A DNA stretch of 64,000 nucleotides from Halolamina salifodinae. Its GTDB lineage: Archaea > Halobacteriota > Halobacteria > Halobacteriales > Haloferacaceae. The DNA lies in assembly GCF_017874235.1 (NCBI RefSeq), contig NZ_JAGGLC010000001.1, positions 434,001 to 498,000 on the forward strand. The letters run 5' to 3'. This document shows, piece by piece, positions 26,896-52,506 of this stretch. A program made the translations under genes and the position numbers. Below the pieces are notes generated by a model. It was not told the DNA's origin, did no database searches, and was given only the letters and a program-made list of their open reading frames with translations. The first letter of the stretch is position 1; each line of letters starts with the position of its first letter.

Positions 26896-27586
26896 GGTCG
26901 TGTTAACTTTGGCATCGATTCCACCAGACGGCGAAGGTTTGGAGCCATGATTCTGCAGTCGCCATCGCGGCGTTTGAGAACGTATTTGAAAACGAGGATG
27001 TTCGGCGTTTTACCTCACGAAAGACACGTTCGATGCTGTTTCGGTTTCCGTGTTTTTCAACACGAAACCGGAGCCCAAGTCGGTCGAGCGCAGCTTTGAG
27101 GCTGCCCGCATTATCGACGAGGAACTCGGCGTCATCGACCTGCTGTTTGTCGCGGAGTTCATCGAGAAACAGCATCGTTGTTCCCGCGTTCCGCGTCTGG
27201 AACAGCCGAACGTGGAGGAATTCGTTCGTCTGTGGATCGACCGCTGCAAACAGCCACCGACGCTGATCATTCACTTGGATCACGGTTTCGTCGACCGCGA
27301 TTTGATCCGGCGATGCGGTGCTGTCGGGCTGTAGATCGGCCTTCTGCACCCAGTTGTGGATCGCTGTTCGACTCCGTTCGACACCCAACGTATCGAGATA
27401 TTGTTTGGTATTCGAAAGTGATAGTCCCGCAATGTGGAGCTGAATACCGACTTGAATCGCAAACTGGGGTGTCCGCTCTCGCTCCACAAAGTCCAAGTCG
27501 ATCCACTCGAAAGAACTGTCGAGGCAGTCGATTTCGGCCATAGAGCATCCGAACATCGACCGCCTCACTCCTAACTTAACACGGCC
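26896..27586 (-). mobile_element. IS6-type insertion sequence, complete
   Basis: A 691-bp element with one transposase gene. Its ends are imperfect inverted repeats: ggtcgtgttaactt at the left, and ggccgtgttaagtt read inward from the right. It is flanked by exact copies of acagagacc. IS6-family elements create 8-bp duplications in most studied cases, so a 9-bp repeat may include one chance match. Intact termini, flanks and gene point to a fairly recent insertion. Confidence 0.9.
26903..27541 (-). CDS. IS6-family DDE transposase
   Basis: A 212-residue transposase that catalyses cut-and-paste or replicative movement of the element. Catalytic residues: Asp84 in IAVDETVIQV, Asp143 in FLVDNAGSLKA and a Glu in SIERVFREVKRRTSSF (about residue 176). 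The HTH-like N-terminus (SNTKQYLDTLGVERSRTAIHNWV) recognises the ends. Length agrees with archaeal IS6 transposases of 200-230 residues, and there is no frameshift. The ATG chosen (MAEIDC) starts 45 bases from the right end of the element. Confidence 0.93.
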   Translation of the reverse strand: MAEIDCLDSSFEWIDLDFVERERTPQFAIQVGIQLHIAGLSLSNTKQYLDTLGVERSRTAIHNWVQKADLQPDSTASPDQIAVDETVIQVNDQRRWLFAAVDPQTNEFLHVRLFQTRNAGTTMLFLDELRDKQQVDDAEFLVDNAGSLKAALDRLGLRFRVEKHGNRNSIERVFREVKRRTSSFSNTFSNAAMATAESWLQTFAVWWNRCQS

Positions 27587-27595
27587 ACAGAGACC
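27587..27595 (+). repeat. Target site duplication, right
   Basis: Second copy of acagagacc, immediately outside the right inverted repeat. Confidence 0.85.
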
Positions 27596-27741
27596 ACTGC
27601 CGGTCATTAAGTGGATAGGGCAGTATTTGAGCGGCATAGTGAGTCTTGAAGCAAATCGTTCGGCGTCGGCGCCGAGGCCTCCGGAGGCTGTGAGGCCCGG
27701 CTGGTACGCGGGGTTTGGGTAATAGGGGAAGAACAACTAGA

Positions 27742-28350
27742 CTAGCTAGAGTGATGGCTTCGGTAATCGTGGGATCCGTCTTCTTCTGTCTCTTCAGTAA
27801 GCAACTGGAGTTTGTCAACTGTTTCGCCACGTCGGTTTTCAATAATACATAGATCTCTACTTCCCATTCCGAGATCACTAATATCGCCGCCAACCGTCAT
27901 CTTGAATCCAAAATCGTGAGCGCCGCCGTAGCACGTGATTCGATTATCGTCTCCGTCAAAATCGTCAGGCACTCTCCATAGCCCAATTGTAAATGGTGAG
28001 GCAGTCTGAAATCGGAGATCGAATTCGTCCATCCAAGGGGGAACTTCTACGAATGCATCAAACTCAATATAGCCTTCTTCAGTACGAAACTGCTTGATCT
28101 GATGGTTTCTCGCTGGCCTCTCTAACTCAGGTTCAACTTGGATATATGTAATATCGATTCCATCAACGTAGGCATACACATAGACTGCCAATAGGAAGGA
28201 ACCGGCAATAACAGCAACAGTGGGGTAATTCGCATATTGGCTCTCCGGAAATAGAATCTGGAAGACCGAAGCAGATAGAAGAGCAGCGATGGAAATCACG
28301 CTGATAGGGATAGTGCGAACACCGTGAATCAGTCTTTGTTTGTACCCCAT
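27742..28350 (-). CDS. Island gene A: two-helix membrane protein, paralogue of the 30094-30669 product
   Basis: A 202-residue protein of unknown function. Two membrane helices (about residues 13-34 and 43-63) are followed by a cytoplasmic or external domain of about 140 residues. That domain shares a layout and motifs with the product at 30094-30669: VPPWMDEFDLRFQ (Trp106) against IPDWADRYHIQFA (Trp107), and DGDDNRITCYGG against TDDDNELIVTG. The DNA is clearly AT-richer than the core. It begins one base after the stop of the 331-residue gene, so the pair is cotranslated. The cysteines in the second half are not shared with the paralogue. Confidence 0.72.
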   Translation of the reverse strand: MGYKQRLIHGVRTIPISVISIAALLSASVFQILFPESQYANYPTVAVIAGSFLLAVYVYAYVDGIDITYIQVEPELERPARNHQIKQFRTEEGYIEFDAFVEVPPWMDEFDLRFQTASPFTIGLWRVPDDFDGDDNRITCYGGAHDFGFKMTVGGDISDLGMGSRDLCIIENRRGETVDKLQLLTEETEEDGSHDYRSHHSS

Positions 28351-28351
28351 C

Positions 28352-29347
28352 CTATTCTGACCCTTCGCGGAGTTGGCGGTACCGTTCTATGACATCCATT
28401 GAGATATGTGCGTCAAATCCCCTGTCTCTAGCGGAGTCATAGACCTCTTTGATGAAATCAACCGGGGGATATTTCTCTTCAGTAGATAGATTCTGCCAGT
28501 ATTCATACAATTCCATTAATTCGGACATGAATCCAAGAGAGAATCCCACTCTCTGCAGATCAGACATCTCAGAAAGTGCCCCATCACTAACTCGGATGTG
28601 GATACGACCCCCGGAAAGTTCCGCCACAATAGTCTTGGAGGCATATGTCCATCTGATAACCATATGGGAGATTATACTATTTTCGGAGAATACCTGCAAT
28701 AAGAGAGGCGATAGGAAACTAGGATTTTCTACTCTTACTTTTTCACCAAATACGTTATCGCCTCCTTCAACCTCGATCTCTTGAATCGCGCGCGGAGTTA
28801 GTGCCGAACTGATCCCCTCCCCTAGTTCCATTTTATAGAGAATCCAAATGAGAAAATCAGGAGCTATGTCAAATTGCTCTAAATATAGTGAGTTGATGAG
28901 CTGAGATTTGATCCGGCTCTGTATACGTGAGACCTCCTTGGAGGCGCCCTTGATGAACAGATAATCCGGAAATTTCCAGTAAATATTAGTCTGACTTATA
29001 TTAACATAGCGTTCCTCACTCATCTCTTCCGAGCTACTCTCGTAGGTGAATCTAGAATCATATTCCTCGTCAGTATACCGAATATGCACTAAATTATCGT
29101 GGTTAATTTCCTCAGGGAGTTCCGTATTCGTAAATAGATCACGAGTGTCTGGTAGACTAAACCCCCCACCAGGATTATTCGGAGACCCTGATTCGTATCC
29201 AGAGAGCCGTTCAGATAGAACCTGCTCAACAGAGGAGATACTCATGTTGCGCTCTAGATCCCCCTTAAGATTGACTCGCAGTGGTGAAAATATGAGCCAC
29301 CCAGAATACTCGAATTCGGATTGGCTACTTCCATCCGTTTCACTCAT
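28352..29347 (-). CDS. Island gene B: 331-residue protein, paralogue of the 31384-32406 product
   Basis: A soluble protein of 331 residues with an acidic, Ser-rich first third and a helical C-terminal half. It aligns over its whole length with the 340-residue product at 31384-32406: N-terminal FEYSGWLIF against FEYQGYLLF, NIYWKFPDYLFIKG (from residue 121) against DIYWYHPEYMLFRG (from 118), FLIWILYK against FLLWLFYK, GGRIHIRVSDG against NGRVHIKASDG, and a closing SLGFMSELMELYEYWQNL against SLSFLQELLQLYDCWQDL. No enzymatic motif is visible. It is followed by gene A with a one-base gap and is transcribed away from the MjaI-like gene. Confidence 0.75.
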   Translation of the reverse strand: MSETDGSSQSEFEYSGWLIFSPLRVNLKGDLERNMSISSVEQVLSERLSGYESGSPNNPGGGFSLPDTRDLFTNTELPEEINHDNLVHIRYTDEEYDSRFTYESSSEEMSEERYVNISQTNIYWKFPDYLFIKGASKEVSRIQSRIKSQLINSLYLEQFDIAPDFLIWILYKMELGEGISSALTPRAIQEIEVEGGDNVFGEKVRVENPSFLSPLLLQVFSENSIISHMVIRWTYASKTIVAELSGGRIHIRVSDGALSEMSDLQRVGFSLGFMSELMELYEYWQNLSTEEKYPPVDFIKEVYDSARDRGFDAHISMDVIERYRQLREGSE

Positions 29348-29456
29348 GAGAGCATACCAGACCCGAGATTGTATAAAATCACAGGAGTACTACTTGTTCT
29401 CGCTTCCGAGGTGTTGACGACAGGCTTATAGAATTTGTACGAGAGATGTCCAGTCA

Positions 29457-30104
29457 ATGGAGAACCTACTCAAGATCCCTGCAGAAGAAAGACAGTCAAT
29501 AGAGGCCGGAGAAACAGCTGACCTTCCGAAGTATGCAGCAAGTGTTCTCTCAAACGCGCTGCGATGGTCCGGGGCGAATTCGCCCGAACAACTGGGCCAA
29601 CTGACCGAGATCCACGACGAGTTCCGCGAAAAGCACCCCGAGGGAGGGTACGAGGACTGGGTCGAATTCTACCACGAAGAGTATAACGGAGAGGAGCGGA
29701 TCGCAGAGGCGACAGAAGATGCCTACGTGATGCTCAAGCAGATACGGGAAGCGGTAAACCAACTTGAACGAGACGACGTTCAAGACTTCGTCCAAGAACT
29801 GGTACTGTATCAGACGTACCGCGGGGAGAACATCCGAGAGCTCGTCGTCCAGATTCTGGATCGTAAATACCGACCAGATGTTGAGAGAGTGCCTGCCGAT
29901 CGTGACTTCGAATATGTGCATGCCAAAGTGGGCGACGTGAGGGTCTCTGTACAGCCCGAATCGAGTGGAATGAGTGGGAAGAATGCCTCTGCAGAGGAGG
30001 ATGAGGATGTAGCGGTCGTGTACTACCGACAGAACAACTCCAACAGGGGCCTACGAATCGTCGTCTCAGAGCTGAACGCCGCACTTTCTCCGTTTAGGAA
30101 CTGA
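29457..30104 (+). CDS. MjaI-type restriction endonuclease relative, catalytic residues apparently lost
   Basis: A 215-residue protein. Its N-terminal and central pattern resembles, from memory, the MjaI family of type II restriction enzymes: LPKYAASVLSNAL, SPEQLGQLTEIHDEF, EDWVEFYHEEY, then VQDFVQELVLYQTYRGENIR. In that family the catalytic core ends in a KGIDGY...VSIKP-type run; here the corresponding run is VHAKVGDVRVSVQPES, so the expected Asp and Lys appear as His and Gln. Codon use is less AT-rich than its neighbours. It is convergent with, and overlaps by 11 bases, the gene at 30094-30669. An alternative is an unrelated helical regulator. Confidence 0.4.
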   Translation: MENLLKIPAEERQSIEAGETADLPKYAASVLSNALRWSGANSPEQLGQLTEIHDEFREKHPEGGYEDWVEFYHEEYNGEERIAEATEDAYVMLKQIREAVNQLERDDVQDFVQELVLYQTYRGENIRELVVQILDRKYRPDVERVPADRDFEYVHAKVGDVRVSVQPESSGMSGKNASAEEDEDVAVVYYRQNNSNRGLRIVVSELNAALSPFRN

Positions 30105-30669
30105 GGTCCGCGATTTTGACCTTGAATTGGTCAATCTGGTATCCGTGTTGGGTGTCCTTCACGGTGAGGTCGTAGGTTACTCCATCTGAAGATTTCCTAG
30201 AGATGATAGCGTTGAACTTGAATTCCGAAACAGGCCCAGTGACAATTAGTTCGTTATCGTCATCCGTTATTCTCACCCCATCTTCGGGCTGATTTCCGAG
30301 GACGACATTACACCCGTTCTGTGCAAACTGTATATGATAACGATCCGCCCAGTCGGGGATTTTTGCTGTACATAGAACCCTTTTACTCTCTCCATCGATT
30401 TGGAGCGGCTTACCGTCTTGAAGGTCCAATTCTCCGGGAACCTGCTTCACAAGCTGGACTCCATTTTTATTCCTAGTATATCTAGATGCGAAATATAGAG
30501 ACGGTGGGGCAATCAATACGCAAGCAATAGAGTACACTTCCGGTTGTTCAGCGTAGGACAGGGTCGTTGCAGTGACGGAAGTCAGGATCGCCGTTGTACT
30601 GAGTATGACCCCAATAGACAGCCTGGTTAGTATTTTTTGAGCCGAATTCGTCAGAAATGTCCTAACCAT
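30094..30669 (-). CDS. Island gene D: two-helix membrane protein, paralogue of the 27742-28350 product
   Basis: A 191-residue protein with two membrane helices (about residues 15-36 and 45-62) and a domain of about 125 residues behind them. Shared features with the 202-residue product are the helix pair, IPDWADRYHIQFA, an Asp-rich DDDNEL and a final alternation of charged and hydrophobic residues. It starts three bases after the stop of the 216-residue gene, so the two are coupled. Function unknown; membrane anchoring and a shared tail suggest a receptor or adaptor role (inference). Confidence 0.7.
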   Translation of the reverse strand: MVRTFLTNSAQKILTRLSIGVILSTTAILTSVTATTLSYAEQPEVYSIACVLIAPPSLYFASRYTRNKNGVQLVKQVPGELDLQDGKPLQIDGESKRVLCTAKIPDWADRYHIQFAQNGCNVVLGNQPEDGVRITDDDNELIVTGPVSEFKFNAIISRKSSDGVTYDLTVKDTQHGYQIDQFKVKIADLSS

Positions 30670-30672
30670 ACG

Positions 30673-31323
30673 TTAGTCAACAATATGCTGTTCAAATTCT
30701 TGGAGAGCATATTCAGCTTCCGACAAGTTGTCTACTGTTAGTTCAAGATTCTCCTCATCATAGACCACAAATATCTCGCCGTCGCCACCGTACTTCGGGA
30801 AGAACAGCTCTGCGTCCCAAAGTGGGCGCTGTTTGATTTCACTCAGGGGCTCTTCAAGTGTCGAAACGTCGACTTTTTCCCCATCTTTGATTACACGAAC
30901 TTCACCAGTATGTTCTGCACTCTGAATAAATCGCCAGATATCCTCAGTAGAACTTGTAATACCGCGCCTCACACGGCTATCTTCGGGTAAGTGTTCATTG
31001 AGCTCTCGGATGAGGTCTAGTGTCTTGCCACTGCCACTCTCAACAGCTATTAGAAGCAGATCGGAGCCCCCTCGAAGCATATATTCCCCCGAATAATCTG
31101 TCATTTCTCCAGAGATTGAATGCTCAGACAGGTGGGTGAAATTCCCAGAGAAAACCCTCTGACCACTGAAGGCATAATTTTCAATTACTCCCTGTTCGGT
31201 CCGAACCGGGTTTTCCTCAACTGACTCAACCGAAGGGAGACTCTTGAGCTCGCCGCTAATCACCGACTCAACTTCCTCGTCGGGCAGCCCCTCATCTGGG
31301 CTAATGCGGCGAATCTCACTCAT
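30673..31323 (-). CDS. Island gene E: 216-residue protein with a P-loop-like motif, remote relative of the 32463-33170 product
   Basis: A soluble protein of unknown function. The N-terminus carries EGLPDEE, close to IGLPDED in the 235-residue product. In the middle is LLLIAVESGSGKTLDLI, which resembles a Walker A P-loop (SGSGKT) without the classic spacing or a Walker B partner; the 235-residue product has VTVSAGSGTFAFQLI in its place. A third block LEEPLSEIKQRPLWDAELF and a closing Glu-rich helix follow. The P-loop likeness is short and could be chance. It is read between the 340-residue and the 191-residue genes. Confidence 0.65.
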   Translation of the reverse strand: MSEIRRISPDEGLPDEEVESVISGELKSLPSVESVEENPVRTEQGVIENYAFSGQRVFSGNFTHLSEHSISGEMTDYSGEYMLRGGSDLLLIAVESGSGKTLDLIRELNEHLPEDSRVRRGITSSTEDIWRFIQSAEHTGEVRVIKDGEKVDVSTLEEPLSEIKQRPLWDAELFFPKYGGDGEIFVVYDEENLELTVDNLSEAEYALQEFEQHIVD

Positions 31324-31383
31324 AGATCGTTAGGCGTTATTACTCATTGGAAAGGTATGGTGCTTTCTATCGGCGAGATCTAT

Positions 31384-32406
31384 TTACGATAACCAGTCCT
31401 CATCTCTCTTGTTGCCATATCTGTTAAGCATGTCATCGGACATACTGTCAATCTCGACGCCTAGGTCCTTTGCAGTCTCGTAGAGGTCTTCAAAGAAACC
31501 GTACGGCGGGATCCTTTCTTGGGCGGGAAGATCTTGCCAACAATCGTAGAGCTGGAGCAACTCTTGTAGGAACGAAAGCGACATAGCCAGTCTCCGAACA
31601 TCGTTCGACGATTGAATATCGCCGTCCGAGGCTTTAATGTGAACTCGGCCATTCCCGATCTGGGTTTTGAGCCGATAGTCGTCGTAGAGTTGGAAGTACC
31701 CCTCGAGTAGGGAGATGTTCTTGTCTTTCAGTATTCCTGCGATCATCGGGACACACCTGCGAAGATTTGTGGAGTCGTCGACTTGGTTAGTCTCCCCAAA
31801 CGGATCGCGGTCTCCTTCTAGAGTGGTGTCAGTCAATGCGCTAATTGAGAGCCCCCCGTCGAATTCGCATGCGTCATAGAGTGGATCGTCTTTACAGTGC
31901 TTGTAGAACAGCCACAAAAGAAAGTTAGAGGTGAAGTCGACCGACCTCAAATTCGCATCTGCGCCAAATTTTGTTCTCGTGTGCTCCCTAGCCTCTTGTA
32001 CGTCGTCTTTAGAACCTCGGAATAGCATATATTCCGGGTGATACCAGTAAATGTCCGTATCCTGGACATGAGGGACCTCTACTTCAACCTCTTCTCCCTG
32101 ATAGTACGCATCTGTAGACTCACGATCCTCATAGAGATACCTGTGACTGATCAAAAAATCAGCTACAGTACTGAGTTTTTCCTCTACGGAATCATCATCA
32201 CGGATGTAGTTCGGAAGGTCAAGATCTTCATACCCTTTCTTAGTGCCCTGGTCTCCTTTCTCGTAGGAGTCGAACAACTCAGAGAGGGTTGCTCTGGCCT
32301 CGCTTCGGCTTCCCTCATACTTCGAATTAAGCGAGGAAACCTCATAGATGCCGTTAAACAGGAGATACCCCTGATACTCAAACGCGACTGGGTCCTCGGT
32401 ACTCAT
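31384..32406 (-). CDS. Island gene F: 340-residue protein, paralogue of the 28352-29347 product
   Basis: A soluble 340-residue protein. It matches the 331-residue product block by block (see that entry). Its first 110 residues are longer and hold a YEKGDQGTKKGYEDLDLPN segment; the region after residue 190 carries FDGGLSISALTDTTLEGDRD. The C-terminal half is the best-conserved part, ending with a WQDLPAQERIPPYGFFEDLY helix pair that recurs in the paralogue. No known domain. Position in the block: second gene, with an AT-rich gap of 56 bases before it. Confidence 0.75.
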   Translation of the reverse strand: MSTEDPVAFEYQGYLLFNGIYEVSSLNSKYEGSRSEARATLSELFDSYEKGDQGTKKGYEDLDLPNYIRDDDSVEEKLSTVADFLISHRYLYEDRESTDAYYQGEEVEVEVPHVQDTDIYWYHPEYMLFRGSKDDVQEAREHTRTKFGADANLRSVDFTSNFLLWLFYKHCKDDPLYDACEFDGGLSISALTDTTLEGDRDPFGETNQVDDSTNLRRCVPMIAGILKDKNISLLEGYFQLYDDYRLKTQIGNGRVHIKASDGDIQSSNDVRRLAMSLSFLQELLQLYDCWQDLPAQERIPPYGFFEDLYETAKDLGVEIDSMSDDMLNRYGNKRDEDWLS

Positions 32407-32462
32407 AGTTGCTAATATGGTAGTTATGCTCAGAATTCAAAAGAGTATTGCTTATAGTATTA

Positions 32463-33170
32463 TCATAAGGACATCTCTGCGTGTTGGAGTACCTGGTCTA
32501 AGATGAACTGTGAGAATTCCACAGAATCGTAATTGCTCGGCTGGTATACCTCAACATACCCACTCTTAGAAGCAGTCATCTTGATATCCTCCTCTTTAGA
32601 CTGAATGTTTAGCCCTATCTGATTCTTCGGCAATTGATGAACTACACTTCCTAATTCTGTGTCGTCAAAGACACCATCCCCGTAAATCGTACCTTTCTCC
32701 GCATTCCCGGTGTTACCGTAAAATCCGACCTGCCAAGTCTCCGCTTCTTCGGCGCGTGAGGCGCCCTCGTATGATCGAAGGAATGAGTCAAGATCGATCT
32801 CCGCTCTTCGTACCGTCGCGGAAGTAGTAGCTCCAGAGATCAATTGAAATGCGAAGGTACCAGAACCGGCGGAGACAGTTACAAATGAACCAGGGACCAG
32901 TAGAAACTCAGTGTACTTAGTCTTGACAACGTCTACTCGTTCACTAACCGAAATATTATCCGTCTCTGGGTCGATATTTACCTGTTCTTCAGTATCCAGT
33001 TCTTGGATCGCTGCTCGACCTGTTTGAACTGTTATTCCATCCCGCTCTGTTGTTTGTCTCACTTCAAGGCATGCAGTAAGTTCAGTATGTTCATCTACCT
33101 GAGTAGTTTCGGTATATGATTCAATCGGGTCAAAGTCCTCATCTGGAAGGCCAATTACTCCTGCACGCAT
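32463..33170 (-). CDS. Island gene G: 235-residue protein, remote relative of the 30673-31323 product
   Basis: First gene of the block. A soluble, acidic protein with many beta-like stretches and repeated Thr/Glu runs (ESYTETTQVDEHTEL, RQTTERDGITVQTGRA). The middle part KYTEFLLVPGSFVTVSAGSG parallels MLRGGSDLLLIAVESGSG of the 216-residue protein, and helix DSFLRSYEGASRAEE parallels DIWRFIQSAEHTGEV. I see no catalytic residues. A TATA-like tttatttc box lies about 27 bases upstream of its ATG, so this gene probably starts the transcript. Confidence 0.7.
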   Translation of the reverse strand: MRAGVIGLPDEDFDPIESYTETTQVDEHTELTACLEVRQTTERDGITVQTGRAAIQELDTEEQVNIDPETDNISVSERVDVVKTKYTEFLLVPGSFVTVSAGSGTFAFQLISGATTSATVRRAEIDLDSFLRSYEGASRAEEAETWQVGFYGNTGNAEKGTIYGDGVFDDTELGSVVHQLPKNQIGLNIQSKEEDIKMTASKSGYVEVYQPSNYDSVEFSQFILDQVLQHAEMSL

Positions 33171-33200: not shown

Positions 33201-33291
33201 CTTTAGCTTCTACACATTTTCTGACGTTCTCCATCGGTGGAGATCTCATAACTGGCAGTATAAGCTTCAGACCACTATACCAGTTAGATGG

Positions 33292-33620
33292 CTACAACCA
33301 CCCCACCTTCTCGCGCGCGCCGCTTCGCCGCCGACGAGTACGCTCCCTTGTAGTGCTCGAGGAACGTCTCGAGATCCTCCCAGCCGCCCCAGTCGAGCGC
33401 CAGGAGCGGGTCGACCTCAGCATCGGCCAGCGCCGTCGCCTAGGTCCGCCGGAGTTCCTGCATCGATAGCTCCCGCCAGCCGGCGTTGCCTGTCTCCTCG
33501 GCAAGCTGTTCGCCCGCGTTCGACACCTACCACCGGAGCGTGCGCGTCGACGACACCGACAGCAGCGAGTCGTCGGCGCCGCCGTCGGGGACCTCCACGA
33601 GCGTGCTGATCGACTGAGAG
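33292..33620 (-). pseudogene. Tyrosine integrase remnant (C-terminal piece, two stops, one frameshift)
   Basis: On the minus strand the frame reads STLVEVPDGGADDSLL, then TLRW, stop, VSNAGEQLAEETGN, then SMQELRRT, stop, ATALADAEVDPLLALDWGG, then ETFLEHYKGAYSSAAKRR. Both stops are TAG where haloarchaeal integrases have Trp (TLRWW and RRTWAT). After AKRRA the coding frame shifts by one base before REKVGWL, again the expected end. This is the C-terminal half of a phage-type integrase with Arg and Tyr regions in place, now dead. It abuts tRNA-Pro, so it marks the end of the island. Confidence 0.8.
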
Positions 33621-33663
33621 CACCGAGAGAACAACAAACCCACACCTCCTGAAACCCAGAAAT

Positions 33664-33735
33664 GGGATCGCCCGGATTCGAACCGGGGTCACGGGCACCC
33701 AAGGCCCGAAGTATACCAGGCTAACCCACGATCCC
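33664..33735 (-). tRNA. tRNA-Pro (anticodon UGG)
   Basis: A 72-nt cloverleaf on the minus strand. The acceptor stem is gggatcg/cgatccc. The anticodon stem cgggc/gcccg holds the loop cttgggt with anticodon TGG. The T arm reads ccggttcgaatccgg. No CCA is encoded. The remnant integrase and the accessory island lie on its 3' side, the usual side for integration. Confidence 0.97.
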
Positions 33736-46086: not shown

Positions 46087-46226
46087 GGATGTGCCGTAGG
46101 CACGCTAACGCGCCAATTCCGGGGTGGCACGTCCCGTTTTCGCCTTGTCTACCGGCACAAATGACCGCCTTGCATATAAAACCCCGACCGGGACAGCGTT
46201 AAGCGCGAATCACGCTGACCGGTAGA

Positions 46227-46340
46227 TTATTCGTTTCGAGACTCAATCTCTTGCTCGTAAATCCGGTCAGGGTCGGGTTCGTACTCCGTTTCAGATTCAC
46301 CAATGTCACCGAGATGTGGCGGGTCACATTGGAGTGCCAT
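46227..46340 (-). CDS. Element small protein (37 residues)
   Basis: A 37-residue acidic frame MALQCDPPHLGDIGESETEY with a charged tail ending in SRNE. Its start overlaps the preceding stop (TAATG), which suggests translational coupling. Unknown function. Confidence 0.45.
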   Translation of the reverse strand: MALQCDPPHLGDIGESETEYEPDPDRIYEQEIESRNE

Positions 46341-46657
46341 TATCGACCCTCCTGTTGTTTCTCGACCCGTCCGTACACGTCCATCGCGGAACGCTTGAGA
46401 CGACGGAGTGCATCGGCCCGTTCAACATCCCCGGCGGCTTCGGCTTCGAGTACCTTGTCATCCAGAGACGCCGCGAGTGAGAGCGCACCCTGACGGTATT
46501 GTTCTAATTCTCGCTGGGCAACAGCAAGGTCGTGGATGATGTCCGTCACATCCATCTCTCTGCTGGCATGATGCACCGTTTCAGCCTCGATAAGGCCCGC
46601 AAGAGAGTCGGTGTCTTCAAACCCGAGAGTTTCGAGCGAATCTGTGACGCTACTCAT
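46340..46657 (-). CDS. Element helical protein (105 residues)
   Basis: A 105-residue mostly helical protein: SLETLGFEDTDSLAGLIEAE, HASREMDVTDIIHDLAVAQR, and a long C-terminal helix DVERADALRRLKRSAMDVYG. Its start overlaps the end of the SWIM gene by eight bases. Similar gene pairs are usual in haloarchaeal plasmids. No catalytic residue. It may be a partner or a regulator of the SWIM protein (inference). Confidence 0.6.
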   Translation of the reverse strand: MSSVTDSLETLGFEDTDSLAGLIEAETVHHASREMDVTDIIHDLAVAQRELEQYRQGALSLAASLDDKVLEAEAAGDVERADALRRLKRSAMDVYGRVEKQQEGR

Positions 46658-47171
46658 CGGCCTTCACCTCCGGGTTCGGAGCCTCGAAGCCGTCACGGTA
46701 GCAGGGCCAACAGGGGAGTTCGGCCCCGTCGTTCCAGTCACCACAATCACAGTCGTCGGGTCGCTGGCGGGCCTTATCGCTGTCGTCGTCGGGTTGCAGA
46801 ACCTCAACAGTACCCCCGTCTGTCGCGGCTACCTGTGGGGTTCCAGAAACGTGTTCCCCCAGTTGGGAATCAACCGCTTCGGTGTTGGCCCAGCCGGGGA
46901 TAGCCCACTCGCCCGTAGCGAACCGAACCCGACGTTCGTGTTTGCACAGTTCCCCGTCTTCGAGGTTGTGTTGTTTGTCGGGACAGGTACAGCGGGCTTC
47001 GAGCGCGTCAACACGGTACTCAGAACCGCTTTGCGAGGTGACTGAATACACATCTCCCCCGAGCGGGAGAACTGTCATGTACTCCGTGAGAGCGCGGACA
47101 TCGCGTTTCTGAAGGTCGGTACTTCCATCCGTTACGGCACGTTCAAGTGCCGCCGTATCGTTGGTTTGCAT
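46650..47171 (-). CDS. SWIM zinc-finger protein of the element
   Basis: A 173-residue protein. The SWIM motif is ARCTCPDKQHNLEDGELCKH: CxC, then Cys and His, a zinc site. A second C-rich stretch CDCGDWNDGAELPCWPC lies at the C-terminus. SWIM proteins are common accessory genes of haloarchaeal plasmids and viruses, probably DNA- or protein-binding. I chose the internal ATG (MQTNDTAAL); upstream codons in the frame cover an unlikely, basic peptide. Confidence 0.72.
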   Translation of the reverse strand: MQTNDTAALERAVTDGSTDLQKRDVRALTEYMTVLPLGGDVYSVTSQSGSEYRVDALEARCTCPDKQHNLEDGELCKHERRVRFATGEWAIPGWANTEAVDSQLGEHVSGTPQVAATDGGTVEVLQPDDDSDKARQRPDDCDCGDWNDGAELPCWPCYRDGFEAPNPEVKADE

Positions 47172-47383
47172 GGCCTTTCGGACTCCAAACGAAGGCCATT
47201 GTCCGGGTGCGACAACACCCGGGCGTTCTCTGAAACGCAACGTCCCGAGGGACAACGACCTTCGTATTTCTACCTTAGACGGGAAGATAATAAAACCATC
47301 GGAAAGTCCCTAATGCGCGTGTAAACAACAGTTAGTAACGTCTAAGGTAAAGACTTAAAGTGGCAGAGATACATCATTGAGAC
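47172..47383. other. Divergent promoter region of the element
   Basis: Two hundred bases between the SWIM gene and the winged-helix gene, which diverge. AT-rich runs (gggaagataataaaacc at 47280-47296, agacttaaagtggc near 47349) are candidate TATA boxes on the two sides. A short repeat word, gtaa and gtct(a)aggtaaa, occurs twice. The winged-helix protein may regulate itself here (inference). Confidence 0.35.
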
Positions 47384-47614
47384 ATGGGAAATGATACAAC
47401 CCCCGGGCGAAAGCCGCGAGTGACAGATGACGAGATTCTGCAACTGTTTCGAGAAACAGATGACCCAGTCCTTTCGACTGCCGAAGTGACCGAACAACTC
47501 CCAATCAAGCGAAGTGCGACGTACAAACGGCTATCAGCACTCCGTGACAGCGGGAAGTTGACTGCTAAGGATATTGGTGGTCGGAATACAATTTGGTGGA
47601 TTCCGGGCAACTGA
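47384..47614 (+). CDS. Winged-helix DNA-binding protein
   Basis: A 76-residue protein: VTDDEILQLFRETDDPVLST (helix 1), then AEVTEQLPIKRSATYKRLSA (helix-turn-helix) and SGKLTAKDIGGRNTIWW (wing). This is the compact haloarchaeal winged-helix repressor of plasmids and viruses. It diverges from the SWIM gene. Likely target: its own and the neighbouring promoters (inference). Confidence 0.8.
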   Translation: MGNDTTPGRKPRVTDDEILQLFRETDDPVLSTAEVTEQLPIKRSATYKRLSALRDSGKLTAKDIGGRNTIWWIPGN

Positions 47615-48189
47615 GCTACGTTGCGGCCTTTCTGTGATATTACCGCCTAAGATTCGGAATCGGGGGTCATGGACGGTTCTCTGCCCGTGAGAAAATAGCG
47701 TGTAGGGACGGGGGTAGGTTGTTACACCAGAGATACCCCCCTCCGTGTATCTTTAGTAACCAGCCGCGCACAAAACAGGGTGGATTTCACCAGATTTTCG
47801 CGGGAATCGGCCCGGAACAGTATCAGGTAGGGATGACAGCGATAAGGGCCAGTGGGTTGCTGTTGTCGGTACTAACTTTCCGCAACCAGCCTACGATACT
47901 GCGCGGGCGAGAGACTGGGTTAGAATCCGCTTCAATCACTCTGCTACCTTCTGCCGACCTTATCGGTGCAAACCGTTAAAATACCCAGTGATTATCCGGC
48001 AATATTTGTGGTGAGAGAGATTGCTCTTTCTGGCATTTCAGGCTCCCGCTGTCCGGTCTGACCCTCCGTATATAAGCCAATTACCTTTCATTGTGGTAAG
48101 GAGGACACAGCAGTCCCACCCGTGTATATAAGGGCGTGTCCTTTCATTGTGGTGAGGAAGCTGATTGCCTCCTTGTTCTCAACAACACA
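47615..48189. other. Non-coding region with repeated promoter unit
   Basis: No convincing gene in these 575 bases; one open frame at 47719-47979 has no supporting feature. The region contains an inverted pair of the octamer CGATAAGG (47840-47847 and 47958-47965), two 56-bp-spaced promoter-like units (48068-48097 and 48124-48153) and a third partial copy of the word ttgtggtgag (48006-48015). It may hold an origin or a control region. Confidence 0.5.
48068..48153 (+). promoter_or_regulatory. Tandem duplicated promoter/operator upstream of a RHH-type gene
   Basis: Two units exactly 56 bases apart. Each has gtatataag (48068-48076 and 48124-48132), a strong TATA box, and 16 bases from its start the 14-mer cctttcattgtggt (48084-48097 and 48140-48153). 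The 14-mer lies where the transcription start is expected, so a repressor could bind there. The gene at 48190 is 57 bases after the second unit's TATA. Confidence 0.55.
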
Positions 48190-48327
48190 ATGCGCGGAAC
48201 TACCATCAGAGTTAGTCACGACGAGAAGCGGCGACTGGATGAAGCGGCAGAGGAAATGTGTGGAACTACCGAGGTTCCATACGGCGAAGTCATCGCACAA
48301 CTCGTAGACAAAGCGACCGACGTGTAG
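48190..48327 (+). CDS. Small RHH-like protein
   Basis: A 45-residue protein MRGTTIRVSHDEKRRLDEAA followed by a helix (VIAQLVDKATDV). The strand-helix-helix order is that of a ribbon-helix-helix fold, and two cysteine-free hydrophobic patches agree. It is the first gene after the tandem promoter, so it may be its own repressor. It belongs to the block that leads to rep. Confidence 0.6.
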   Translation: MRGTTIRVSHDEKRRLDEAAEEMCGTTEVPYGEVIAQLVDKATDV

Positions 48328-48388
48328 CGTAGCGACTATCGAATAATTGAGTAGGTCGGTTAGGGCCGACCTTTCAGCACCTTACAAA

Positions 48389-48745
48389 ATGTCAGTAGAC
48401 ACATCTACCAACGACACGGAGAACCGTAAATCTGTCGCTTCTAATACGACAGATTACCAGCACAGCAACGACAGCGAACTAAAATCCCACTTCCAACAGG
48501 GCGGGCGGTACTTCCTCCAAGACCCCGCAACTGGGGAGAGCGTCAATGTCTCTCGGCTGACCGCCTACGCCGAGTACGGCAGGGAAATATACCAACGGGA
48601 CGCACACCACGAGATTCCACTACTGAAAGTGGATGCACCGAAGTTTCTCGATGCACTCACACGGCAGGAACATACGGAGTATCATAAGCAGGAACCCGAC
48701 CCCGTAGAGGTGGACGGCTTCCCCCTGCTTCGAGCGGGGCGATGA
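48389..48745 (+). CDS. Element protein ahead of rep (118 residues)
   Basis: A 118-residue, polar protein of unknown function. The first 45 residues are Asn/Thr/Ser-rich and probably disordered; the rest is helical with SRLTAYAEYGREIYQRDAHH and PLLKVDAPKFLDALTR. Its stop overlaps the rep start by four bases (ATGA), so it is translated just ahead of Rep. It could be a copy-control or Rep-loading protein (inference). Confidence 0.62.
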   Translation: MSVDTSTNDTENRKSVASNTTDYQHSNDSELKSHFQQGGRYFLQDPATGESVNVSRLTAYAEYGREIYQRDAHHEIPLLKVDAPKFLDALTRQEHTEYHKQEPDPVEVDGFPLLRAGR

Positions 48746-49701
48746 GCCAAAGTCGAGATGACTATGCGCCAAACAACAAAAATTCGTCCGGGTTCGCTGA
48801 CACCCACGATACTGAACCCGCTGACCCGACTGCCGCCGACCACGCTACTCGTCGCGGCCTTCCTCTTGCTCCAGAGTCCGTGAAGCCCGACCGTCTCCCC
48901 GACCCGTTCGTCACCGATAAGGGCCGGGCGGTGACGGTGGCTGAAGCCGGTGAGACGTACCTGAAGGTCCAACGGTCCAACTGGCAAGAAGATACACTCA
49001 CGTCGAAGTACGAGCGGCACAAGTCCGAAACGTACCCCCGGATTCTCGAAGCCGACCGGCACTTTCGGGCGAAGTACGACGGCGTCACGACGGCGATGCT
49101 GACGCGCCGACTGTCGCCGCTCGATGAATCGGGCGAGTGGCTGACGCCGTGGGAGTGTAACGAAATGCTCCACGGCGGGGGAGTCCACAAGTCGATTCGC
49201 GGGACGCTGAACTACCAACTGGATGCGTTCAAGTTCGAGTGGATAGCCGTCACCGCACCGACGCGAAGCGCCGGGACTCCCCACGAACACATCTACCTGT
49301 GGATAGACGACCCCGACAACGATGTGACGACTGACCAAATCCTGCCCGCCCGTGACAAACATCTGAAATACTGTGCAAACGCCTACGAGAAGCATCATCA
49401 ATATCGGGCAGACGGAACCGGCGGTGCGGTCACAGTCCAGCACTCCCCCGACCTTATCGGCTCGGTCCCTGACGAGTTCTTCAGCATCGCTGAGAACAGT
49501 CCGACCTACGAGGATACGGGAAAAGTGTTAGCGAACACCGCCGGAGCGCAATATCTCGCTTCCCAACTGGCACACCTGCCGGTCGGTGACTACTACGACA
49601 GCCAGCGGGAGAACCCACCGCAGGCATTGTTTGAAGGCGCGGCGCTTGCGTGGGCCAGCCCGCGCGACTGGTTCCGGGCCGGTCGGGGTGTCCCCTCGTA
49701 G
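48742..49701 (+). CDS. Rolling-circle replication initiator (HUH Rep)
   Basis: A 319-residue Rep. The metal-binding motif is HEHIYLW at residues 181-187, close in layout to haloarchaeal plasmid/virus Reps. A Tyr-rich motif NTAGAQYLASQLAHLP (Tyr271) is the candidate for motif 3 and the nicking tyrosine, although another Tyr, such as in KYCANAYEKHHQY (210-221), is possible. It would nick the element's origin for replication of the excised circle. The N-terminal 60 residues are low-complexity. It overlaps the 118-residue gene. Confidence 0.78.
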   Translation: MSQSRDDYAPNNKNSSGFADTHDTEPADPTAADHATRRGLPLAPESVKPDRLPDPFVTDKGRAVTVAEAGETYLKVQRSNWQEDTLTSKYERHKSETYPRILEADRHFRAKYDGVTTAMLTRRLSPLDESGEWLTPWECNEMLHGGGVHKSIRGTLNYQLDAFKFEWIAVTAPTRSAGTPHEHIYLWIDDPDNDVTTDQILPARDKHLKYCANAYEKHHQYRADGTGGAVTVQHSPDLIGSVPDEFFSIAENSPTYEDTGKVLANTAGAQYLASQLAHLPVGDYYDSQRENPPQALFEGAALAWASPRDWFRAGRGVPS

Positions 49702-49888
49702 CAGAGCGGGGGAGATGACTATGTGCTACGAAGCAGAAAACCGCCCCTCTACCGACCCACCGGCCTGCCAGTTCCCCGGCCCACCAGTAGGGTTGAAGAG
49801 AGCGGTGCGCGTTTCACCGGGGAGCAAGACGGCTGATAGCCGGGTGGCTGGTTTCTGTGGTGTAGCGCATAGTCATCTCGGCATTGCT

Positions 49889-50035
49889 CTACCGGCAGTC
49901 TTCGTCGGGCCACTCTCCCTCAGTAATGTATTCTACCTCTTCATCGGACAGTACGTCTTTGTCTTGAAGAACGCCGACAAGCCGCCCGAACGATTCACTC
50001 AGATACTCGGTTCCAGATTGGCTATCATCACTCAT
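49889..50035 (-). CDS. Small acidic element protein
   Basis: A 48-residue acidic frame MSDDSQSGTEYLSESFGRLV that continues with a helix (GVLQDKDVLSDEEVEYITEG) and ends in DEDCR. Its composition (Asp/Glu over 30 percent) is the haloarchaeal one, against the antisense frame. Unknown function. Confidence 0.5.
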   Translation of the reverse strand: MSDDSQSGTEYLSESFGRLVGVLQDKDVLSDEEVEYITEGEWPDEDCR

Positions 50036-50357
50036 TGCAGTAGGTTGGTTCCGAGCAGGGACAGATGAACGTTTGGAGAGGTATGCCAACACCGATAAGG
50101 GCAGGCGCTGGCCGTCAGTCCCGAAATGCGGCGTAAGGCAACGACCAGCCTGCCACCCCCGACAGTCTGCGGGTCGAAATGTACGCCTCGCTTCGAAATT
50201 TCGCTTTGCAAGAGCAATCAAGACGAACCAACCTCGGGGTCGCGCCAAGCAGAGTACTTCTCTATATTTGGAACGGGCCTCATGGACGGTCGAAGCAACT
50301 TCCTGCAAACTCGGCTGTCCCGCCCGGACCCTTATCGGTGCTAATATGTTTGGACTA
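50036..50357. other. Non-coding region with an inverted pair of the element's octamer
   Basis: I see no supported gene in these 322 bases. It holds a convergent pair of CACCGATAAGG (50090-50100 and 50330-50340, the second inverted) and a GC-rich middle. Candidate positions for a control site or replication origin. Confidence 0.4.
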
Positions 50358-51239
50358 TCAGCGTTCCTGAGATTCTTCGTCAGTCTGGATAGAGAAAGAC
50401 GGTGCTGGACTATCAGACAGTTCGAGATTTTCAAGGCTATCTTGTTCATCTACCTCATACTCTAATTCAACCAGATGATTTGATTCGGCTGGGAGTGTTG
50501 AAGTACCACTTACCCAAGTTGAGAACTCTTCCCTTTCGTTCCGGTTTCCGGTTACACCTCCATCAATTTCTACAACCTCAACAAAAGTTTCAATCTCAAC
50601 CGTCACGGAGTCTTCTCTCGGGTTGTTCATCTCAACAGTAACTGTACCACCATCCGAGTCATATTGAACTGACGTATCTTCTATTGACGGGTCTGGCTTC
50701 GGTGGTTGTGGGTCGTAATTGTACGCTATACCACCAAGGAGAGCAGTAGTACCAGCACCAACTAATCCAATCGTTCTACGCCGTGATAGATTGACCGAAG
50801 TGGAGGCGTATCCAGCCATATTTACTCGGGACTCTACTACATTTTTCAATCTGGAATATGCGTAAGGCCCACTACCTGCGCCAACCAAACCCGACAACAA
50901 CATTAGTCCATAGAACGGCTCTGGTCGTGTAACGCTCGGGAGTGTATAGAACAATAATGTTACAAATACAAAACTAATGCCCAACCCAACGAAAAACCCG
51001 AGTACAACGAGCGGAGCATTTCTTATAATCTTTTCATCAGTTTCCGAATTGGTATCTGACTCCTCAGAGTCTGCTGAAGTAATTGCAAGCAAGTAGAACG
51101 CGAGTCCAAATATTCCCGTAATTGCAACGACACAGAACCAGATGATACCGCTTCGGTTGTGTCCCTTTGCGTGGAACCCTACTGCGACGGCGAGCGTGAG
51201 CCAAAGCAGGGCGGTAACTATCAGGATATTACTAATCAT
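50358..51239 (-). CDS. Element membrane protein with C-terminal beta domain
   Basis: A 293-residue protein. Four TM helices in the first 120 residues (about 5-25, 35-55, 75-100, 108-125), then a basic juxtamembrane region with a fifth hydrophobic patch (TIGLVGAGTTALLGGIAYNY). The C-terminal 115 residues form an acidic, beta-rich domain (SVQYDSDGGTVTVEMNNPRE) like exported haloarchaeal domains. DNA is AT-richer than the rest. No link to a known viral spike or transport protein is evident. Confidence 0.68.
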   Translation of the reverse strand: MISNILIVTALLWLTLAVAVGFHAKGHNRSGIIWFCVVAITGIFGLAFYLLAITSADSEESDTNSETDEKIIRNAPLVVLGFFVGLGISFVFVTLLFYTLPSVTRPEPFYGLMLLSGLVGAGSGPYAYSRLKNVVESRVNMAGYASTSVNLSRRRTIGLVGAGTTALLGGIAYNYDPQPPKPDPSIEDTSVQYDSDGGTVTVEMNNPREDSVTVEIETFVEVVEIDGGVTGNRNEREEFSTWVSGTSTLPAESNHLVELEYEVDEQDSLENLELSDSPAPSFSIQTDEESQER

Positions 51240-51279
51240 GCTTTTGGAAATTTAGTGGACTTGTAAAATAGGTACGGGG

Positions 51280-52374
51280 CTATCCCATCTGGTCGAGCGC
51301 GTCACGCCGGTCCTCGACCGGGACGTTGTCGTACTTGAGCGTGGTCTTGACAGACTCGTGACGCAACTGAGCCTGCGTAGCGGCAAGGTCGCGCTCTTTG
51401 GTCATGTGAGTACCCACCGAGTGCCGAATTGCGTACCATGACATCTGCCGGTTCTCGTAACTAATTCCGGCCCGTTCGCACAGGTCTTTGAGAATCCGAC
51501 TCAGTTCGTTGGAACCGTAGCGGTTCCCATGCCGAGTGAGCCAGAGTTTGTCGGTGTCCTCGTATCTCGGATGGTCCGCTCGTTCGTCTATCCACCGCTC
51601 TAACGCGGTCGCGGTCCGGTCGGTGATACCTACCGTCCAGTTCCCCTCGTTCTTGGCTGAATCCTCTCTTGGGATACGTAGCAGGCCGTTCTCGGGTTCA
51701 CACCAGCCCACCCGAGCGTTCCCGACTTCCACCGGACGAAGCCCGGCGTCGAGACTCGTCCAGACGAGAGACGTGAATTTCCAGCTATCGGGGTCGGCTT
51801 CGAGAAGGTCGCTATCGGTTCCGTAGTTGGGAGTGCCGTCTTTCCCAAGTGCCGCCTGTCGAATCTTACGACGTTCCGGCTTCGTCAGGAAGTCGCGTGG
51901 GCCGTTATTGCCGCCGCCGGACTGGAAGTTCCAACTGAACTCCCACTCGTCGCGGTTGTACTTGTGCTGAAGCCACTTCGAGTAGCGACCGAGCGCACCG
52001 AGCGTTTTCCCCTTCGTGGACTCCGTCACGTCGCGGAACGCAACTTCCTCCATGTATGCGCGGGCGTCGTCTTGGTCGGGCGGGGCTTTGTAGCCGCCGC
52101 GGTTCTCCCACATCCACAGGTCGAAGCGGGCCGTCCGATGTCCCGTCTGGCAGACGGTGTACGGAGAGTATCCTTTCGCTTTCTCCGGGTCTTTCCCCAT
52201 CCGAAGCAGGTACGTGAGGAAGGGTTTGCGGTACTCGTAATAATCCACAGCGCCCTTATCGGATAAGAAGTCGCGTTGGTTCTTGCGGACGATTGTAATC
52301 GTTCTATTCGGTTCCATCATATCCGAATCGAAACCGGGACAGCGTTCGAGCGTATTCGGCTTTTCGAGGTTCAT
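51280..52374 (-). CDS. Tyrosine recombinase (integrase) of the element
   Basis: A 364-residue integrase. The N-terminal SAM-like domain covers about residues 45-150; the catalytic part follows. Arg213 in LDAGLRPVEVGNA (box I), RHSVGTHM with Arg317 and His318 (box II, where the usual preceding His is Tyr), His339 in QLRHESVK and the nucleophile Tyr348 in TTLKYDNVP. The gene ends 46 bases from the tRNA-Leu end, typical of archaeal tRNA integrases. It is intact, so excision should be possible. Confidence 0.9.
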   Translation of the reverse strand: MNLEKPNTLERCPGFDSDMMEPNRTITIVRKNQRDFLSDKGAVDYYEYRKPFLTYLLRMGKDPEKAKGYSPYTVCQTGHRTARFDLWMWENRGGYKAPPDQDDARAYMEEVAFRDVTESTKGKTLGALGRYSKWLQHKYNRDEWEFSWNFQSGGGNNGPRDFLTKPERRKIRQAALGKDGTPNYGTDSDLLEADPDSWKFTSLVWTSLDAGLRPVEVGNARVGWCEPENGLLRIPREDSAKNEGNWTVGITDRTATALERWIDERADHPRYEDTDKLWLTRHGNRYGSNELSRILKDLCERAGISYENRQMSWYAIRHSVGTHMTKERDLAATQAQLRHESVKTTLKYDNVPVEDRRDALDQMG

Positions 52375-52419
52375 TTGGGGTCTTGTCGTTGTTGGACAAG
52401 ACGAAAACGGGAGGTAGAG

Positions 52420-52475
52420 AGTGCGCGGGACCGGATTCGAACCGGCGGACCCCTACGGGATAGCGTCCTAAGCGC
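52420..52475 (+). repeat. Right 56-bp attachment repeat, in tRNA-Leu
   Basis: Copy of 46031-46086. It covers the 3' part of the tRNA-Leu gene (anticodon loop to acceptor end), so integration rebuilt a complete tRNA. Confidence 0.92.
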
Positions 52476-52506
52476 TACGCCTTTGGCCTGGCTCGGCAAC
52501 CCGCGC
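52422..52506 (-). tRNA. tRNA-Leu (anticodon UAG)
   Basis: An 85-nt tRNA with a long variable arm on the minus strand. The acceptor stem is gcgcggg/cccgcgc and the discriminator is A. The anticodon stem tagcg/cgcta holds the loop cttagga with anticodon TAG. The variable arm is tcccgtaggggt-like, and the T arm ccggttcgaatccgg. It is the attachment site of the integrated element. Confidence 0.96.

Follow-up and report, generated by a model that had tools for sequence, protein, structure and literature searches.

RexAB was recognized decades ago as a phage exclusion system, whereas its connection with the RdgC fold was made recently; to our knowledge, the system has so far been seen in bacteria and their phages only. 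The crystal structure of lambda RexA shows an RdgC fold and the protein binds DNA non-specifically (PMC11077077); RdgC itself is a dimeric, ring-shaped, DNA-binding protein (reviewed in PMC11077077). RexB is a membrane protein, and RexAB of Pseudomonas putida likewise consists of a DNA-binding protein and a membrane protein; there, the RexB-type partner damages the membrane upon RexA overproduction, and the authors of that study proposed that infection is aborted by this damage (PMC12894663). A related gene arrangement is the "RdgC histone" operon of Halobacteria and Bacillus, which encodes a histone, an RdgC-like protein and a transmembrane (TM) protein (PMC11390915). Here we describe a cassette of six minus-strand genes (A, B, D, E, F and G) in a 64,000 nucleotide stretch of the Halolamina salifodinae genome (RefSeq assembly GCF_017874235.1, contig NZ_JAGGLC010000001.1, positions 434,001 to 498,000; the whole stretch is referred to as the window and its own numbering is used throughout). 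According to structure prediction and comparative analyses, the cassette is an archaeal, multi-subunit, RdgC/RexA-fold set with interchangeable partners, which partly supports and sharpens an original prediction, made from the sequence, of a two-copy multigene system with a conflict or defence role. No description of this cassette was found in the literature searched (most subscription papers were outside that search) and, as far as we found, no RexAB-like antiviral system has previously been described in archaea.

The cassette comprises one operon, G-F-E-D, and a pair, B-A, which lies beyond a plus-strand gene (C) from this operon. G (32463..33170; 235 amino acids [aa]), a putative RdgC-core-like protein, is the first gene of the operon and is followed by F (31384..32406; 340 aa), the predicted RdgC-fold protein and hallmark gene of the cassette, E (30673..31323; 216 aa), a small soluble protein with a possible RdgC core, and D (30094..30669; 191 aa), a candidate effector or anchor predicted to have two membrane helices and a beta sandwich; the gaps between these genes are 56, 60 and 3 base pairs (bp), in that order. 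B (28352..29347; 331 aa), a second F-type protein of a subtype without E, is separated by 1 bp from A (27742..28350; 202 aa), a second D-type membrane protein. All six open reading frames (ORFs) are intact at these coordinates, as originally called, and their families recur in other haloarchaea. The end-to-end alignment of B and F, proposed by eye in the original prediction, was recovered by BLAST (26% identity, E = 8e-39), and the proposed kinship of A and D was found both by BLAST (E = 2e-5) and by iterative profiles, which gathered the identical 34 proteins from either seed. E and G, which had been thought to share weaker signs of relatedness, gave no BLAST match and a weak profile signal that was reached by 4 of 100 shuffles and is collinear with the stronger F-G and RdgC-G matches (see below). 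The idea of two sets that each consist of a large soluble, a small soluble and a membrane protein therefore holds for the F-type and D-type proteins, which are common to both sets, but not for the small soluble protein, which the B-A set lacks; G does not belong to a repeated unit at all and is a distinct gene upstream, far more widely distributed than F.

To place these genes in a wider context, genes were called around F homologues in 394 haloarchaeal genomes (86 genera) and their neighbours were clustered. While homologues found only here or as decayed single genes would have spoken against a system, F relatives formed a conserved operon in 32 of the 394 genomes (about 8%) and 23 of the 86 genera, and the co-occurrence in different contexts that the original prediction called for was clearly positive, as F-E-D, F-D and F-AlbA_2 arrangements all recur with flanks that vary among loci. 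Specifically, F and E are adjacent in 28 loci, nearly all of which continue with D and ten of which have G in front; six loci, including B-A of the window, carry F-D without E; and in seven loci F is followed by a Schlafen AlbA_2 protein (PF04326, 1e-11 to 2e-15 in the four tested). E was present in 27 of the 394 genomes, all of them F-positive, and D was also present in 27 genomes, 26 of which were F-positive in the initial scan, while in the 27th, D is immediately preceded by an F gene of divergent sequence (E = 3e-27). As every genome with E or D carries F, both are obligate partners of F among these 394 genomes. G, on the other hand, was found in 71 of the 394 genomes, most of which lack F.

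On the F tree, the partner types are resolved almost without mixing, with 4 changes (minimum 3) as compared to 14.1 in shuffles (0 of 200 shuffles were as low), and all nine loci with two F copies combine an F-E type with a different type. We thus rejected the explanation that B is a recent duplicate of F, because the split into F subtypes is old and follows the partner gene and because all nine two-copy loci pair unlike subtypes. B-A is instead a second, older subtype (F-D without E), and the combination of B with F is one instance of unlike subtypes that are repeatedly found side by side.

Additional genes were observed beside some of these loci. Next to the F-D genes of genome G108, an opposite-strand gene pair (L208:7391-9095) encodes proteins of 296 aa and then 276 aa, the latter with a hydrophobic N-terminus, and, judged by eye, resembles another pair built on the F-D design. 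In two loci (L036:11552-17986 and L037:817-7278), D is followed after 67 to 86 bp by a gene for a protein of 2144 to 2153 aa, the N-terminus of which resembles a GHKL/Hsp90-type ATPase by eye and which had no Pfam match at 0.01.

Sequence models recognized little in this cassette. F, E, D, A and B had no match in Pfam, NCBIfam, PADLOC or PHROGs (127 family members scanned) and G had none in Pfam, NCBIfam or PADLOC, in agreement with the original prediction that the six genes carry no motif of a known family; the only exception was one PHROGs family of unknown function, phrog_18169, which was matched by 23 members of the scanned set and, judging from this count, is probably the G family. Apart from a restriction enzyme (gene C), Pfam, NCBIfam and PADLOC are blind to the cassette, and surveys of haloarchaeal defence systems that rely on these resources therefore miss it. 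Structure prediction was more informative for F. An AlphaFold2 model built from seven sequences (predicted local distance difference test [pLDDT] 80.7; predicted template modelling score [pTM] 0.82) had a single Foldseek match with E <= 0.001 in the PDB, i.e., Escherichia coli RdgC (2owl; E = 6.7e-5, probability 1.00), which extended over the whole length of the protein, as compared to E = 0.05 and probability 0.10 for the second-best match. Nine viral structures also matched with E <= 0.001; four of these are named recombination-associated protein or RdgC, three are named "exonuclease" and two are unnamed, and "exonuclease recombination-associated" is a label that phage annotators give to RdgC-type genes. 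We consider a fold of F like that of RdgC and RexA to be well supported by this model.

Profile comparisons were judged against column-shuffled controls (n = 100), using an E. coli RdgC query identical letter for letter to PDB 2owl. The scores of RdgC with G (24.0 as compared to 13.5 +/- 2.1 for shuffled profiles) and of F with G (25.4 as compared to 13.6 +/- 2.2) were reached by 0 of 100 shuffles each. The RdgC-E match was weak (reached by 6 of 100 shuffles) and the F-E match was weak or not significant when taken alone (16 of 100). All six alignments among RdgC, F, E and G follow one common register, and neither D nor AlbA_2 gave any signal in profile comparisons with this set. On the basis of sequence profiles, it is thus probable that F, E and G have an RdgC core in common; the structural model is that of F.

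Further families were seen around G. In L070/L101, L108 and L112, a small tyrosine integrase is located directly before G, and a nearby protein of 300-320 aa (n15) scored clearly in profile comparisons with E and with G (reached by 0 of 40 shuffles); n20, which adjoins G in four loci, also showed a profile score with G. RdgC-core proteins may represent a large haloarchaeal superfamily on mobile DNA. In L125, L128, L129 and L131, the gene that follows G, oriented tail to tail, encodes a protein (n22) with a single N-terminal membrane helix, possibly another RexA/RexB-like pairing.

The layout of the cassette agrees with that of RexAB (from lambda, P. putida [RexABpp] and actinophages) in that a predicted RdgC-fold protein is followed by a small membrane protein on mobile DNA, with regard to the F-E-D and B-A gene order, the gaps of 1 to 60 bp, the predicted fold of F and the predicted helices of D. 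The cassette differs from RexAB in being archaeal, in the length of F (340 aa as compared to 279 aa for lambda RexA), in the presence of the additional RdgC-core-like proteins E and G, in the absence of a cI/cro neighbourhood and in that AlbA_2 can replace D. A RexA profile did not score clearly above shuffles with F, E or G (best with E, 2 of 60), but this comparison has no power because its positive control, the known structural pair RexA and RdgC, also failed (13 of 60). Separately, an unannotated homologue of RexA was found on two small enterobacterial plasmids (L205, L207), with a RexB-like protein of 145 aa and four helices encoded behind it.

Two TM helices had been claimed for both A and D, and are indicated for D by its structure model and for A by two hydrophobic segments. 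In the model of D, two helices precede a beta sandwich (pLDDT 68, i.e., modest), for which the structural matches were immunoglobulin (Ig)-like only. Cap15 of the cyclic oligonucleotide-based antiphage signalling system (CBASS), an S-2TMbeta protein with two helices and a cyclic-nucleotide-binding beta barrel, was considered as an identity for D and rejected, as no Cap15 was among the 50 matches listed, which were generic Ig-like folds.

Because F-D and B-A show the two-part design of RexAB, we propose that F acts as a sensor and D/A as an effector, and we see an even chance that the cassette is a two-module conflict system working like lambda RexAB. F together with E and G, and B in the other set, would bind DNA, probably as clamp-like dimers, and would respond to foreign or abnormal DNA (e.g., viral replication or recombination intermediates). 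Once triggered, the DNA-bound complex would activate D/A, which would most probably permeabilise the membrane and thereby halt the infected cell. Sister cassettes with AlbA_2 in place of the membrane protein would then couple a different effector to the same sensor. Of this model, the predicted fold of F, its linkage to the partner genes and the exchange of partners come from the computations, and the remainder (DNA binding, trigger, effector action and protection) is what we propose on that basis. In its broader form, which we put forward tentatively, the RdgC-core superfamily (F, E and G, plus additional relatives encoded next to G) would be a shared DNA-sensing platform of an archaeal antiviral system, serving interchangeable effectors (a two-helix membrane protein or Schlafen AlbA_2), with pairs of unlike subtypes kept side by side. 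If true, an archaeal set with this two-part logic, an extra small subunit that occurs only together with F and a choice of effectors would extend the RexAB idea to archaea, and would provide a testable handle on how a clamp senses foreign DNA and passes a signal to the membrane.

Several observations weigh against this interpretation. At the sequence level, F resembles RdgC in its predicted fold and not in the RdgC sequence model: no F from 24 F-positive genomes matched the Pfam RdgC family (PF04381) at E <= 10, none of the 127 family proteins had an RdgC match in the Pfam scan, and the RdgC-F profile match was not significant (24 of 100 shuffles). The TM-scores between the F model and 2owl are moderate (0.43/0.48; root mean square deviation 9 A), as would be expected if domain angles differ, and the suggested fold of E and G derives from weak profile scores. 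The D/A proteins (191-202 aa) are predicted to have two helices and a beta domain (a beta sandwich in D), rather than the four helices of RexB (~145 aa); the cassette is thus RexAB-like in layout, yet D is not RexB-like. Finally, PADLOC models were found 70 times near cassettes as compared to 47 times in random regions of the same genomes, a difference that we regard as weak, in part because one of the random control regions fell within a DISARM (defence island system associated with restriction-modification) locus.

The genomic context of individual cassettes includes defence genes. Cassettes are located in mobile islands that adjoin integrases and lie near restriction enzymes; neighbouring genes encode, among others, integrases, DISARM components and type IV restriction enzymes, and on a Halobaculum roseum plasmid a Shedu defence gene directly overlaps D, with restriction genes upstream. 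A conflict or defence role, as put forward in the original prediction, is plausible, mainly because F has the predicted RdgC/RexA fold and an obligate membrane partner; protection against viruses is what we infer from this, while any enrichment of known defence genes is weak.

F was found in none of the IMG/VR scans (2.9 million viral contigs) or INPHARED records (50,697 phage records), and on plasmids it was found in two records, both haloarchaeal. We therefore rejected the explanation that F belongs to a virus or provirus module. The same absence, with only two plasmid records, argues against the proteins serving the mobile element itself, with RdgC-fold clamps steering recombination, replication or integration of the island and D holding the DNA complex at the membrane, even though RdgC is common on phages and plasmids, integrases are located beside many cassettes (directly before G in several loci) and G probably belongs to a PHROG family. 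As exchange for an AlbA_2 partner also suits an effector better than a tether, we consider this role rather doubtful.

The AlbA_2 partner (PF04326), found with F in seven loci, is absent from the window, where F and B have membrane partners. In L041 (9438-9908) and L056 (8147-8641), the AlbA_2 gene is followed by a gene for a protein of 156-164 aa with a C-terminal membrane segment, and the F-AlbA_2 subtype may thus also include a membrane component. The presence of either a membrane or an AlbA_2 partner, which is obligate, distinguishes the archaeal cassette from RdgC, which F resembles over its whole length in predicted fold without a Pfam or significant profile match. A small membrane or nuclease-like partner beside a protein with a DNA-binding fold, in a mobile context, would also suit an addiction module that resembles toxin-antitoxin systems and serves to stabilise the island, with D/A or AlbA_2 as toxin and F/E as control. 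However, the F-type protein exceeds the usual antitoxin size, up to three RdgC-core-like proteins occur together and no autoregulatory DNA-binding domain was recognized, and we regard such a module as very improbable.

As the "RdgC histone" operon of Halobacteria also has a TM protein gene behind that of an RdgC-like protein (PMC11390915), we compared the two arrangements by gene content. A histone is the first gene of that operon, whereas G or F is first here and no histone was recognized in the Pfam sequence scan of the island proteins; its TM protein has a winged helix, whereas the D model has no winged-helix domain; and E and G are additional in the cassette. Common ancestry of the RdgC-like proteins of both is possible. 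The likeness would favour a chromatin or nucleoid module, i.e., a membrane-anchored, DNA-bridging complex akin in kind to that operon, but neither a histone gene nor a winged-helix TM protein was recognized in the cassette, and its patchy island spread (8% of genomes and none of six congeners) is unlike that of a housekeeping nucleoid factor; we judge this explanation unlikely.

Gene C (29457..30104, plus strand), located tail to tail with D with an 11 nucleotide (nt) overlap, had been described as restriction-modification-like and indeed encodes an MjaI-type restriction endonuclease (PF09568, 8e-24, 84.8 bits as compared to a cut-off of 22.7; PADLOC REase_II, 2e-25). The match of C to the MjaI family is strong. 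C has no methyltransferase gene beside it. An N4/N6 methyltransferase gene located elsewhere in the genome, unlinked to C, could possibly protect the DNA from this enzyme; orphan CTAG methylases are common in haloarchaea (PMC5867850, PMC6471742). MjaI-type enzymes also occur at other cassettes, i.e., convergent with D in L031, as in the window, and adjoining G in L102.

The cassette and gene C are part of an island of ~7 kb (~26.9-33.7 kb of the window), the AT-rich character of which is evident from a GC content of 44-54% in its genes as compared to 65-70% in the surrounding DNA. One boundary of the island is the 3' end of a tRNA-Pro (TGG) gene (33663..33735, minus strand; identified by ARAGORN), which represents its integration site; next to this gene, the predicted integrase remnant was found as a decayed tyrosine-integrase C-terminus (33290..33640, minus strand) in a frame with stop codons (...LRRT*ATALADAEVDPLLALDWGGWEDLETFLEHYKGAY...). 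At the far end lies a transposase ORF with an IS240/IS6-type DDE domain (26903..27736, minus strand; PF13610, 2.4e-11). Here, 7460 bp separate the flanks of the island, as compared to 440-1256 bp in each of the six other genomes available for the genus, and because the flanks are close together in all six congeners, the island is an insertion present in one of the seven genomes; most simply, it was acquired recently. One congener (G074) has retained a second copy of the tRNA end (25 nt). No direct repeats were found in a search at the far end of the island, where they have presumably been lost. A second AT-rich stretch of the window (46200-52500), bounded by a tRNA-Leu gene (52421-52506), contains an intact tyrosine-recombinase-like ORF (51280-52374, minus strand) and is probably another integrated element.

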